34,190 nt of DNA, taken from the NCBI GenBank assembly GCA_903870175.1, contig CAIQBY010000058.1, forward strand, positions 1 to 34,190. Reading direction: 5' to 3'. Below are positions 2,680 to 22,252 of the stretch, piece after piece (position 1 is the first letter of the stretch; every line of letters begins with the position of its first letter). Made by a program: the position numbers and the translations under genes. The DNA comes from an uncultured Bacteroidota bacterium. Its GTDB lineage: Bacteria > Bacteroidota > Bacteroidia > 2-12-FULL-35-15. The notes under the pieces were generated by a model that was not told where the DNA came from, made no database searches, and saw only the letters and a list, made by a program, of their open reading frames with translations.

Positions 2680-3306
2680 TTGAAACTTGAAGGAGCCAAG
2701 ATTATAGTGAGCAATCAATTAATTATGAAACTACATCAAAACAAAGAAGTATTCAAAGAAACAATAATGTCAACCGCTAAATATTTTGATATTTATTTTG
2801 GGAGAGTAGAAAGTGATTATTGGATTACTTATGTTCTAAATAATATTGCTTTATCAAAGCATCAAGACATTGTTGTTCTTGCGCGAGGTACTGCCATTTC
2901 AAAAGGATTTAACACAATAAATTTATTTTTAGTTGATATTGATCTTGAGATTATTCAGCCAGAACAAACGCCTACACTTGAAGTTAAAAATTTACTGCAT
3001 GAAATTGAAATAGAAATCACGACAGGGCTTTCAGAAAAGATAGTTACTTATATAACAAATATAGGACCTGATTTCCGGAACACTGTATTTGAATATTCAA
3101 GCTTAATTGATAATAGCGATTTTGGAATGGTAAATAATCAATTATTGATCGAAATAAAATCAAATTCAACACCTAATACTTTTAAGAAAATGCCTATTCA
3201 AAGTTTTATAACTGAATATCTATTGGCAAATGGGCACATAAAGGAAATTGATCTTTATGAAATGAAACCATTTTACTTGAATACTCTTATAGGTTTTGCA
3301 CTTTAA
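2680..3306 (+). CDS. hypothetical protein, possibly 5'-truncated by the IS
   Basis: I do not recognise this 208-residue protein. It is soluble in appearance, without signal peptide or membrane segments, and mildly acidic with mixed alpha/beta character. The frame is open leftward to about the IS edge at 2641. The first possible start is a TTG at 2680 and the first ATG is at 2725 (MKLHQNKEVF). The weak start, together with the adjacent IS terminus, suggests that the original 5' end was removed by the IS insertion. It converges with the sigma-factor stub 12 bp away. It may therefore be a relic instead of a working gene. Confidence 0.55.
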   Translation: MKLEGAKIIVSNQLIMKLHQNKEVFKETIMSTAKYFDIYFGRVESDYWITYVLNNIALSKHQDIVVLARGTAISKGFNTINLFLVDIDLEIIQPEQTPTLEVKNLLHEIEIEITTGLSEKIVTYITNIGPDFRNTVFEYSSLIDNSDFGMVNNQLLIEIKSNSTPNTFKKMPIQSFITEYLLANGHIKEIDLYEMKPFYLNTLIGFAL

Positions 3307-5297: not shown

Positions 5298-5552
5298 ATG
5301 TCAAACCAAAATAATGTAAAAAAATACAAAAGATTAACAAAAGAAGAATTAAGAAATTGTAAAGGATTAGAAAATTATTCGGATGAGCAAGCTGAAGAAG
5401 CTATCCAAACAATAGAGAAATTATCTATTCTGTTTTATGAGCTCTACAAAAAGGAAAAACAAACATCTGAAGAAAAAATAAACAGAAATCACAAATTAAA
5501 ATATGATAAAGATGAAGGAAAAGAAAATATCAAAAAACGAAATGTTGCTTAA
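5298..5552 (+). CDS. small recombinase-associated protein
   Basis: This 84-residue, highly charged protein begins MSNQNNVKKYKRLTKEELRN and contains a predicted helix (EQAEEAIQTIEKLSILFYEL). It ends in a Lys-rich tail that overlaps the start of the recombinase by about 50 bp in another frame, which implies translational coupling. Small ORFs of this kind are often found just upstream of Bacteroidota serine recombinases, as I recall, and may assist or regulate them. No enzymatic motif is visible. The gene is credible from its context and amino-acid composition; its function is unknown. Confidence 0.7.
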   Translation: MSNQNNVKKYKRLTKEELRNCKGLENYSDEQAEEAIQTIEKLSILFYELYKKEKQTSEEKINRNHKLKYDKDEGKENIKKRNVA

Positions 5553-7404
5553 TCAGTTTGCCAAGGGTAAAAGCAATGACGCTAAAATAATCGGTGTTCA
5601 AAATTGTGTAATATACACAAGGGTTAGTTCCAAGGAGCAGATGGATACCAACCAAAGTCTGGAATGGCAGAAAAAGTTCTGTACAGAATATGCACAAAAA
5701 AATCAATTTGTCATCAAAGGTTACTTTGGAGGAACATTTGAGAGTGCAAAGAGTGATGAGCGAAAAGAATTCAACCGCATGCTCAATTTTGTTAAAGCGA
5801 GTAAAGCAAAGATCTCATTTATCTTAGTATATAGCCTTGATCGTTTCAGCAGAACGGGAGATAGTGCAATTTATATCGCAAGTGAACTGAAGAAAACCGG
5901 AGTAAATATTGTTGCTGTTACCCAACCAATAGATACTAATTCTCATTCAGGAACCCTTCAACAGAACATCCAATTTATTTTCGGAAAATACGACAATGAC
6001 TTGCGCAGACAGAAGACTATTGACGGAATGCGTGAAAAATTGTTGAGGGGAGAATGGATTGGTCCTGCACCAACTGGCTATTCATTTGTTAAGGGTGCCG
6101 TAAAGCAAACCATTATAATAAATGAAAAGGGGGAGTTAATAAACCTAGCTTTTAATTGGCGTGCAAAGGGAATGACCTATGAGCAAATTATTGGGAAGTT
6201 GAATGGATTGGGTATGAAAATGGCAAAACAGACATTGACGGAAATTTTTAGGAATCCTTTCTATTGTGGTTTTATGGCGCATAATTTACTCAATGGCGAG
6301 GTCATCAAAGGGAATCATCCTGCATTGATTGAACAGAGTTTATTTTTAAGAGCAAATGAGCAAAAGAAAACAGATGGGTACAGTAGTCATAAGGCGAATG
6401 ATTATCTTCCGTTAAAGATTTTTGTAAAGGATGCGGATAGTGGTGCTCCCTTTACAGGCTATTTAGTAAAGAAGAAAGGCCTTTACTATTATAAAGTGAA
6501 CAGAACAGGGGTAAAAATAAATCGGAGTGTTAAAATAATGCACGACAGGTTTAAGGATTTACTTAAGGCATATACAATTGATTCCACTTTTATAGAACCG
6601 TTGAGCATTCAATTGGGGTATACTTGGCAAAATTTAACAGAAAGCAATACCAGCGAGAAAAAAATGCTTGGTTTAAAACTAAACGAAGTGGAGGCTGAAT
6701 TTTACAACTTGAGAAAAAGACATGCCCTAGGAAATGTAAGTTTTGATATTTACGAGGAATTTTCGGCAGAAATGAATGCAAAAAAAGAGTCCATTTTGAA
6801 ACAAATTGAATCACTCGAAAAAAAATTATCGAACCCTAAAGAACTGATAAATTACTCTCTTAAATTAGCTTCAAACCTCGCTCCTATATGGGAGTCTGGA
6901 GATTTCTACCAAAAACAGATTTTGCAAAATACCTTATTTCCGAACGGTTTGGTATATGATGCTAAAAAAGATAATTATCGAACCCCGGTTGTAAATTCAG
7001 TGATCCTCTGTATTGCTGATTTAGCAAGGGATTTGGAGAAAAATAAAAGCCGAACTTCTCAAAATTTCTTCGAAAAGTCCGGCTCTGTACCCGGGATCGG
7101 ACTTGAACCGATACGTCCGCAATGGACACAGGATTTTAAGTCCTGCGTGTCTACCAATTCCACCACCTGGGCATTTTTTCTCGGCAGTCAAAAAAAATCC
7201 TCCTCTTATTCAGAGAAGGTATTCTCTTGGAGCGAAAGACGGGGTTCGAACCCGCGACCTCGACCTTGGCAAGGTCGCGCTCTACCAACTGAGCTACTTT
7301 CGCTTGAATTTCGGACTGCAAAAGTAAGTAAATTTTTAAACCGACAAAATTATTTCTGTAAAATCGTAAAATTAATGTTGATAAATATCATATTCTTTAA
7401 TTAA
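5503..7404 (+). CDS. large serine recombinase (element integrase) with junction-encoded C-terminus
   Basis: The 633-codon frame encodes a serine site-specific recombinase. The resolvase catalytic domain begins with CVIYTRVSSKEQ (R40 and nucleophile S42) and includes YSLDRFSR. A recombinase domain follows (LLRGEWIGPAPTGY, and later RNPFYCGFMAH). A coiled-coil-like segment is at about 390-450 (LKLNEVEAEFYNLRKRHALG). Recognisable recombinase sequence ends near residue 515-525. The last 100 or so codons are read antisense through a terminator and two tRNA genes (GIGLEPIRPQWTQ comes from tRNA-Leu), so they are not a protein domain. The natural C-terminus must differ when the element is excised. 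The start is uncertain among M1, M4 and M14. It integrates or excises the element at the tRNA-Leu locus, by inference. Confidence 0.88.
   Translation: MIKMKEKKISKNEMLLNQFAKGKSNDAKIIGVQNCVIYTRVSSKEQMDTNQSLEWQKKFCTEYAQKNQFVIKGYFGGTFESAKSDERKEFNRMLNFVKASKAKISFILVYSLDRFSRTGDSAIYIASELKKTGVNIVAVTQPIDTNSHSGTLQQNIQFIFGKYDNDLRRQKTIDGMREKLLRGEWIGPAPTGYSFVKGAVKQTIIINEKGELINLAFNWRAKGMTYEQIIGKLNGLGMKMAKQTLTEIFRNPFYCGFMAHNLLNGEVIKGNHPALIEQSLFLRANEQKKTDGYSSHKANDYLPLKIFVKDADSGAPFTGYLVKKKGLYYYKVNRTGVKINRSVKIMHDRFKDLLKAYTIDSTFIEPLSIQLGYTWQNLTESNTSEKKMLGLKLNEVEAEFYNLRKRHALGNVSFDIYEEFSAEMNAKKESILKQIESLEKKLSNPKELINYSLKLASNLAPIWESGDFYQKQILQNTLFPNGLVYDAKKDNYRTPVVNSVILCIADLARDLEKNKSRTSQNFFEKSGSVPGIGLEPIRPQWTQDFKSCVSTNSTTWAFFLGSQKKSSSYSEKVFSWSERRGSNPRPRPWQGRALPTELLSLEFRTAKVSKFLNRQNYFCKIVKLMLINIIFFN
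7041..7084 (-). terminator. rho-independent terminator of the tRNA-Leu/Gly unit
   Basis: On the minus strand AGCCGGACTT pairs with AAGTTCGGCT through a 17-nt loop and is followed by TTTTATTTTT. One pair is G-U in minus-strand RNA but would be A-C in plus-strand RNA, so it works leftward. It starts 4 bp after the tRNA-Leu 3' end and lies inside the recombinase reading frame. Confidence 0.75.
7088..7172 (-). tRNA. tRNA-Leu(UAA)
   Basis: This 85-nt class II tRNA starts GCCCAGGTGGTGGAATTGG. The anticodon stem-loop CAGGACTTAAAATCCTG gives anticodon UAA. A variable arm and the T-arm (ATCGG, TTCAAGT, CCGAT) are present. The acceptor stem pairs GCCCAGG with CCCGGGT, giving a G1-U72 wobble and an A5-C68 mismatch. 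No CCA is encoded. It lies downstream of tRNA-Gly in the same leftward unit and is the likely integration site of the serine-recombinase element. Confidence 0.93.
7231..7303 (-). tRNA. tRNA-Gly(GCC)
   Basis: This 73-nt tRNA has the acceptor stem GCGAAAG paired with CTTTCGC and the D-arm AGCTCAGTTGGTAGAGC. The anticodon stem-loop CGACCTTGCCAAGGTCG gives anticodon GCC, and the T-loop is TTCGAAC. All stems pair. It is 58 bp upstream of tRNA-Leu in the same direction, so the two form one transcription unit. No CCA is encoded. Confidence 0.96.
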
Positions 7405-20737: not shown

Positions 20738-22252
20738 ATGTCTTCAACAATAATTCTTATTTGTGTAATCGCCTATTCCGTTTTATTATTCGGAATCACA
20801 TGGGTTACTTCGCGCGGTGCTACCAATGAAAGTTATTATGTGGGTAACCGTTCTTCCAAATGGTACCTTGTGGCATACGGAATGATTGGTGCTTCTCTTT
20901 CGGGTGTCACTTTTATTTCTGTACCGGGCACTGTAGGGCGGCTGGATAGTTTCAACGGGCAGTTCAGTTATTTTCAGGTGGTATTGGGATACTTATTCGG
21001 GTATGTAGTAATTGCTTATTTATTGCTGCCATTGTATTACCGGCTTAACCTTACTTCTATATATTCGTATTTAAAAGATCGCTTTGGGCTGTATTCCTAT
21101 CGTACAGGTGCTTTGTTTTTTATTCTGTCGCGCACTATCGGTTCAGCATTCCGAGTATATGTGGTAGTAAATGTATTGCAGACTTTTGTTTTTGATGAAC
21201 TCGGAGTTCCTTTCTACGTTACAGTTGCTGTGTTTCTTGCTTTGATTTTATTATATACCTATCAGGGTGGTGTAAAAACTATTGTATATACCGATACGCT
21301 GCAAACCACATTCATGCTGCTTTCTGTTATCCTATCTGTCATATTTATCATGAAACAGTTGAACTTGAATGTAGGTGATATCTATGATAAAATTTCTCAT
21401 TCAAGTTATTCTCAAATAATATTTACAGATTGGAAATTGAAATCATTTTTTCCGAAACAATTCTTTGGAGGGATGTTTATTGCCATAGCAATGACAGGGC
21501 TGGATCAGGAAATGATGCAGAAAAACATCTCCTGTAAAAACGTTGGCGAAGCACAAAAAAATGTACTTACATTTACATTTGTATTGTTACTTGTAAATAT
21601 ATTATTCCTTGTGCTTGGTGCGCTGTTATATATATATGCTGCCGAAAGAAGCGTGCCGCTGCTGGTTGATTCGAGCATGAAAATAGTATCCGACAATGTA
21701 TTCCCCAATGTAGCTTTGCATTCTTTGGGAATGCTTTCGGGCGTATTCTTCATCATCGGATTAATATCAGCTGCTTATCCAAGTGCCGACGGCGCTCTCA
21801 CCGCATTGACTTCTGTATTCTGTATCGATTTTTTAGACTTGAAAGATGATGAAACAAAAACGGAAGAAGAGAAAAAGAAGATTCGATACCGGGTTCATTT
21901 TACGTTTGCAGGGATATTATTATTGGTAATAGTAATTTTCAAACTGGTGAATAATGAAGCCGTAATCACCAACCTGTTCACCTGGGCAGGTTATACGTAT
22001 GGACCATTATTAGGCTTATATTCATTTGGGTTATTCACCAAAAAACAAGTGCATGATAAATTGGTGCCGGTAATATGTATTCTTTCACCGGTTGCTTGTA
22101 TATTTTTAAATAATTATTCGAAAGAATTATTTAACGGTTATCGCTTCGGATTTGAAATGCTTATTGTAAATGGGCTTTTCACTTTTATTGGTTTGCTTAT
22201 TATTTCGAAGAAAAAGAATATGTGTATATATCCTAATCAATCGAATGAGTAA
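20738..22252 (+). CDS. sodium:solute symporter (SSS family)
   Basis: This 504-residue polytopic protein has about thirteen membrane segments and belongs to the SSS family (LeuT fold), which takes up sugars, acids, vitamins or other solutes with sodium. Family features are TNESYYVGNRSSKWYLVAYG, MIGASLSGVTFISVPGTVG near residue 55 and the long transmembrane series to the C-terminus. The sodium-site helix LISAAYPSADGALTALTSVF is intact. The substrate cannot be read. The last six codons (PNQSNE then stop) are formed by the first unit of the tandem array that follows, so the C-terminus has been shaped by repeat expansion. Confidence 0.93.
   Translation: MSSTIILICVIAYSVLLFGITWVTSRGATNESYYVGNRSSKWYLVAYGMIGASLSGVTFISVPGTVGRLDSFNGQFSYFQVVLGYLFGYVVIAYLLLPLYYRLNLTSIYSYLKDRFGLYSYRTGALFFILSRTIGSAFRVYVVVNVLQTFVFDELGVPFYVTVAVFLALILLYTYQGGVKTIVYTDTLQTTFMLLSVILSVIFIMKQLNLNVGDIYDKISHSSYSQIIFTDWKLKSFFPKQFFGGMFIAIAMTGLDQEMMQKNISCKNVGEAQKNVLTFTFVLLLVNILFLVLGALLYIYAAERSVPLLVDSSMKIVSDNVFPNVALHSLGMLSGVFFIIGLISAAYPSADGALTALTSVFCIDFLDLKDDETKTEEEKKKIRYRVHFTFAGILLLVIVIFKLVNNEAVITNLFTWAGYTYGPLLGLYSFGLFTKKQVHDKLVPVICILSPVACIFLNNYSKELFNGYRFGFEMLIVNGLFTFIGLLIISKKKNMCIYPNQSNE

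Follow-up and report, generated by a model that had tools for sequence, protein, structure and literature searches.

Integration of a mobile element appears to exchange the C terminus of the enzyme that carries it out. The window, which is the whole stretch of 34,190 nucleotides analysed here and one entire contig of a fragmented assembly (423 contigs), holds, as comparison with related Bacteroidota MAGs suggests, the attL (right-hand) junction of an integrative element that used its own large serine recombinase to enter a tRNA-Leu gene at the 3′ end. On this reading, attP would lie inside the 3′ end of the recombinase gene, and integration would swap a conserved tail for sequence read antisense from the tRNA, an explanation to which we give, as a whole, a probability of about 0.88. 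The features at the junction are as follows.

5503 to 7404, + strand: ORF of a large serine recombinase, 633 aa, integrated form (open frame; Resolvase and Recombinase Pfam domains)
5503 to 7086, + strand: element-encoded part of the recombinase, 528 codons (end placed at the att core; alignment with relatives)
7046 to 7086, − strand: hairpin and T-tract, putative element-borne replacement terminator of tRNA-Leu that also codes for the recombinase linker (terminator scan; fold; compensatory changes)
7087 to 7092, + strand: att core GTACCC (present at both attL and attR in the four elements that have their two ends on the same contig)
7087 to 7172, − strand: tRNA-Leu(UAA), the integration target, whose 3′ end is the attB core (ARAGORN; empty sites in relatives)
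7093 to 7401, + strand: host-derived antisense tail of the integrated recombinase (length variable in relatives; predicted disordered)
7103 to 7108, + strand: candidate T-arm recognition motif TTGAAC, 10 bp past the core (sequence; 5-bp rule from PMC3783163)
7228 to 7303, − strand: tRNA-Gly(GCC), chromosomal, probably crossed through the chance absence of an in-frame stop (ARAGORN; relatives with this tRNA pair have shorter run-ons)
7402 to 7404, + strand: stop codon TAA, chromosome-derived (sequence and open frame)

The recombinase has the domain order of large serine integrases, an N-terminal Resolvase domain (PF00239, residues 36–185, E 1.3e-25) followed by a Recombinase domain (PF07508, residues 208–289, E 3e-13), both above the Pfam cut-off. 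Zinc-ribbon cysteines (residues about 300–345) are absent in the clade of this window and kept in relatives at 40–52% identity. Codon 528 is the last that the element encodes, and 105 further codons lead from the 3′ end of tRNA-Leu to the TAA, which is the first in-frame stop. The first-pass annotation had described a frame continuing for about 100 codons through the terminator, tRNA-Leu and tRNA-Gly to a stop supplied by the chromosome, and both points hold, the TAA lying beyond the element boundary at the core. Because the run-on past the junction in relatives spans 2–95 codons with a median of 13, the frame here probably crosses the second tRNA by chance, at the long end of the run-on distribution, and the crossing is not a feature in itself.

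The boundary was located by comparison with relatives that lack the element, as had been proposed from the sequence. The same tRNA-Leu/tRNA-Gly pair and the downstream chromosomal genes occur without an adjoining recombinase in other genomes of the genus, and homology to the window starts within a few bases of 7087 in many of them (for example, G026, G014, G034, G004 and G005). An empty site could be read directly in one genome (G034:C241), which has the tRNA pair without the recombinase and carries a recombinase 99% identical over residues 1–538 at another gene, tRNA-Leu(CAA). Since relatives have the pair without the recombinase and their homology begins at the tRNA-Leu 3′ end, the arrangement that the first-pass annotation had named as fatal to its idea, a recombinase gene fixed beside the tRNAs with no boundary near 7040–7095, is not what the genus shows. 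GTACCC at the boundary is common to the tRNA-Leu junctions; junctions at tRNA-Met and tRNA-Phe carry the ends of their own tRNAs there. The genome from which the window comes was searched for the element's far end and yielded no tail and no second core-bearing copy; nor was an excised circle observed in reads. An IS21-type istA/istB pair (10–2369, − strand) sits at the left contig edge and is the probable cause of the assembly break, which would explain why the assembly lacks the element's left end.

The far end was found in relatives. At position 189109 of contig C32 in G002, 34 kb from the recombinase junction, a native tRNA terminator is followed by GTACCC and then by TATGGATTGAAATTATCGAAC..., and what follows this attR core keeps the recombinase reading frame and reads VPYGLKLSNFIDDFGRIRKLKAFMEIKQFA up to a stop. 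A longer tRNA-fragment match nearby (C32:190167–190216) had first been taken as attR and was rejected in favour of the tail-bearing site. Related elements likewise have at attR, in frame after the core, a tail of 28–30 codons with its own stop (VPYGLDLSNFIDDFQxLRILMNS...), which is exactly 30 codons long in 24 of the 32 distinct tails. With a permissive cut-off (E up to 0.1), profile searches placed tails of this kind in 19 of the 36 genomes of the genus; they also turned up in other families of the same class. Four elements, of 3.9, 24.9, 25.4 and 34 kb, each have their two ends on a single contig, and joining their attL and attR halves gave in-frame enzymes of 558–562 aa. In one locus (G033:C13) recombinase and tail are already fused in the assembly, in a protein of 559 aa; the fusion is most simply the junction of two tandem elements, equivalent to attP. 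The claim that integration changes the C terminus of the enzyme is thereby borne out, and the C terminus of the circular form, as reconstructed from the paired ends of these four relatives and seen in the fused locus, is a different, conserved tail in place of the antisense-tRNA sequence. The first-pass annotation erred in one respect: it had the protein family end before the terminator, whereas in the members examined the terminator codes for part of the protein, and the native stop lies 28–30 codons past the core.

The contig of the fused locus (L072, L086 and L106) has a tail site at 20764 and, at 53833, a second tail to which the recombinase is joined, an arrangement suggestive of elements in tandem at a single tRNA. 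In L231 and others, remnants of decayed recombinase ends next to attR suggest repeated rounds of accretion. Among five distant elements searched for attR, the one clear case was in Chitinophaga polysaccharea, whose recombinase, about 42% identical, lies at tRNA-Phe and whose candidate attR, 12.3 kb away, encodes VERSGEMSNFLEDFKRLNDALNG; the motif SNFxxDF is common to this tail and that of the family. The tail was not found for six recombinases of 23–27% identity by a heuristic that presumes the same arm motif and is a weak test.

The last ~14 element-encoded codons are at the same time the replacement terminator of the tRNA. The hairpin folds at −23.4 kcal/mol (z −5.0), and across 29 relatives 96.2% of cells are paired, with two-sided changes in 7 of 13 pairs and an observed covariation score reached by no shuffle; the loop varies in length by one base between members. 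This pattern argues for a hairpin in double use, as code for an enzyme linker and as terminator of the tRNA.

Overrun into a tRNA is a trait of the family. Scanning a single genome for each species yielded 80 loci in Bacteroidota, 75 of them with the ORF end inside the contig, and in 62 of these 75 the ORF runs antisense into an ARAGORN-called tRNA. The targets comprise 13 anticodon types, with five Leu isoacceptors and tRNAs for Met, Phe, Glu, Arg, Val, Ser and Ala among them. Two truncated genes, one that is fused to a native tail and several that still have a T-arm-like GxEP peptide are among the 13 exceptions. The overrun is thus beyond chance, and the length of the run-on is at chance level. 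Recombinases of 23–27% identity in this genus also run into a tRNA in 9 of 14 cases (14 of 20 with closer ones included). The distance from a conserved RT motif to the junction, about 34 codons, hardly varies among relatives, and the constant reading frame across tRNAs is for this reason weaker evidence than it appears. Among the matches listed for plasmids and phages, relatives were of only ~33% identity or less, and there were none in IMG/VR. A second large serine recombinase of the window's genome (G000:C327:20000–24700, L253) has an end peptide resembling antisense tRNA, VESERFELSSKQGINKLSTC, at a place where ARAGORN calls no tRNA.

The spacing of a short motif suggests how many tRNAs could serve one family. 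TNGAAC lies 10 bp past the core in the tRNA-Leu targets and TCGAAC 15 bp past the core in attR, where the first 30 bp are the most conserved part, and in the LI integrase the zinc-domain motif is shifted by 5 bp between site types (PMC3783163). The T-arm TNGAAC is thus probably the zinc-domain motif, mimicked in attP, and recognition of this conserved arm would explain why one family is able to use many tRNAs.

Beyond the att arm, the tail is under protein-level constraint, as judged by pN/pS. In codons 11–22, more than 30 bp from the core, pN/pS was 0.44 in frame (bootstrap over codons 0.28–0.66) versus 0.88 and 1.46 in the shifted frames, and in codons 11–30 it was 0.57 versus 0.91 and 1.19, all values coming from a short stretch of 32 distinct but related sequences. 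AlphaFold2, run on an alignment without the attR tails as separate rows, predicts in the fused form a low-confidence linker followed by a tail helix at 535–558 (block pLDDT up to 75), and in the window form an antisense tail with block pLDDT of 21–34; the models thus predict a helical native tail and a disordered replacement. Because model confidence is moderate (pTM about 0.4), we use only this local contrast and make no global reading. Long helices are predicted at 361–408 and 414–438 of the window form, and Foldseek matches are to SPbeta-type, Bxb1, phiC31 and LI integrases, with global TM-scores that are low (domain arrangement).

We suggest that in the circle the recombinase frame would run past GTACCC into the left end of the element, and so acquire the conserved helical tail of 28–30 aa and its own stop. 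Strand exchange at the core, with recognition probably via the T-arm TNGAAC 10 bp away in attB and its mimic 15 bp away in attP, would move the tail to the far end of the element, attR, and join the gene to the tRNA, leaving an integrated gene that would end in antisense-tRNA sequence of arbitrary length. The tRNA's own terminator would be displaced to attR and the in-gene hairpin would take its place. The source of tailed enzyme would then be the circle, or else a tandem junction. We infer that integration may depend on the tail and that losing it would make integration self-limiting or alter the action of the enzyme; by analogy with Mx8 and the archaeal suicidal integrases, the swap could limit or redirect it. 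Tentatively, and at somewhat under even odds, the tail helix may be a directionality control, in which tailed enzyme carries out attP x attB recombination and integration strips the tail from enzyme made later, leaving it silent or poised for excision. The first-pass annotation had likewise proposed a switch between an integrated and an excised form, and also that antisense transcription from the gene could interfere with the tRNAs; both ideas are hypothetical here. A short ORF just upstream may be a directionality factor or another partner of the recombinase.

5298 to 5552, + strand: small ORF, 84 aa, overlapping the recombinase start, candidate recombinase partner (homologous DNA in several relatives, blastn from about 5308 onward)

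A doubtful yet quite conceivable alternative is that the swap has no regulatory function, attP lying at the gene end for compactness and both enzyme forms behaving alike. The recombinase body is mostly intact in the integrated copies of the relatives scanned and the last residues of the tail are variable, as this would have it, but the constraint on the tail as protein, its kept length and stop and its predicted helix speak for a role. Plain self-inactivation, in which the tail-swapped enzyme is dead and the element locked in unless another copy supplies tailed enzyme, as proposed for the archaeal suicidal integrases, seems to us unlikely: integration always removes the tail, and tandem elements that would give the resident copy a native-type tail do exist (G033:C13), but most integrated genes are open up to the tRNA, and the altered Mx8 integrase is active with changed specificity (PMC6070905). 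Lower still is the chance that the conserved sequence past the attR core is an attP DNA arm only and is untranslated. Its most conserved 30 bp do fall in a serine integrase half-site, of about 25 bp (PMC3783163), but the in-frame constraint extends over codons 11–30, 30–90 bp from the core, 24 of 32 tails have their stop at the same position, and an assembled fused ORF exists. Last, the notion that there is no element boundary, the recombinase being a permanent neighbour of these tRNAs and the long overlap a product of chance in an AT-rich chromosome, could draw on the unusually long run-on through the second tRNA but is exceedingly improbable and was rejected, refuted as it is by empty sites such as G034:C241 and further opposed by the nearly identical recombinase in tRNA-Leu(CAA) of G034 and by the family-wide overrun.

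If the exchange of tail for antisense-tRNA sequence affects activity, it would be a directionality device within the DNA rearrangement itself, in a class of enzymes widely used for genome engineering. For annotation, integrated genes carry tRNA-derived C termini, and an integrase cloned from a genome annotation would have the wrong end. These serine integrases also appear to be tRNA-directed, a kind of targeting that a major island database omitted as not known (PMC4383910), and many Bacteroidota islands may therefore be unmapped. Family elements carry defence-like genes: an AbiEii-like gene in the element of the window, a type I restriction-modification set in the Chitinophaga polysaccharea element (L231:6005–11003) and a Fic-domain protein in a 4-kb element of G034 (L065:4295–5842).

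2680 to 3306, + strand: AbiEii-like gene, probable element cargo (PADLOC AbiEii E 6e-35)

In the Islander paper of 2014, serine recombinases were not known to target tRNA genes (PMC4383910); because work after 2014 may have changed this picture, we state novelty with caution. The literature searched, with most subscription journals outside its coverage, gave no account of tail exchange for serine recombinases. For tyrosine recombinases, exchange of the tail via an att site inside the integrase gene is already known. The myxophage Mx8 IntP, a tyrosine recombinase, has attP within its coding sequence and gains a new 3′ end on integration, and the enzyme so altered remains active but with another specificity (PMC6070905, citing Tojo 1996 and Magrini 1999). 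The family described here, as judged from the joined halves of four elements and the fused form, shares this att site inside the integrase gene and the new 3′ end, and differs from the phage enzyme in being a large serine recombinase family with many tRNA targets, a conserved tail encoded in the circle and a terminator within its coding end. Archaeal suicidal integrases of the SSV/pTN3/pT26-2 type are tyrosine recombinases with the recombination site inside the integrase gene, which integration likewise alters (PMC8371274); there the gene is split into two inactive halves, whereas here the catalytic and DNA-binding parts remain whole, with 528 of about 558 residues on the same side of the core, only the tail is exchanged, and the enzyme class is unrelated. 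With the large serine integrases (SPbeta, Bxb1, phiC31 and LI/A118) the family has in common the Resolvase and Recombinase domains and, apparently, a coiled coil, the overall fold matched by Foldseek and an offset of 5 bp in the zinc-domain motif from attP to attB; it is set apart from them by its tRNA targets, by an attP inside the gene and, in the clade of the window, by the loss of the zinc-ribbon cysteines.
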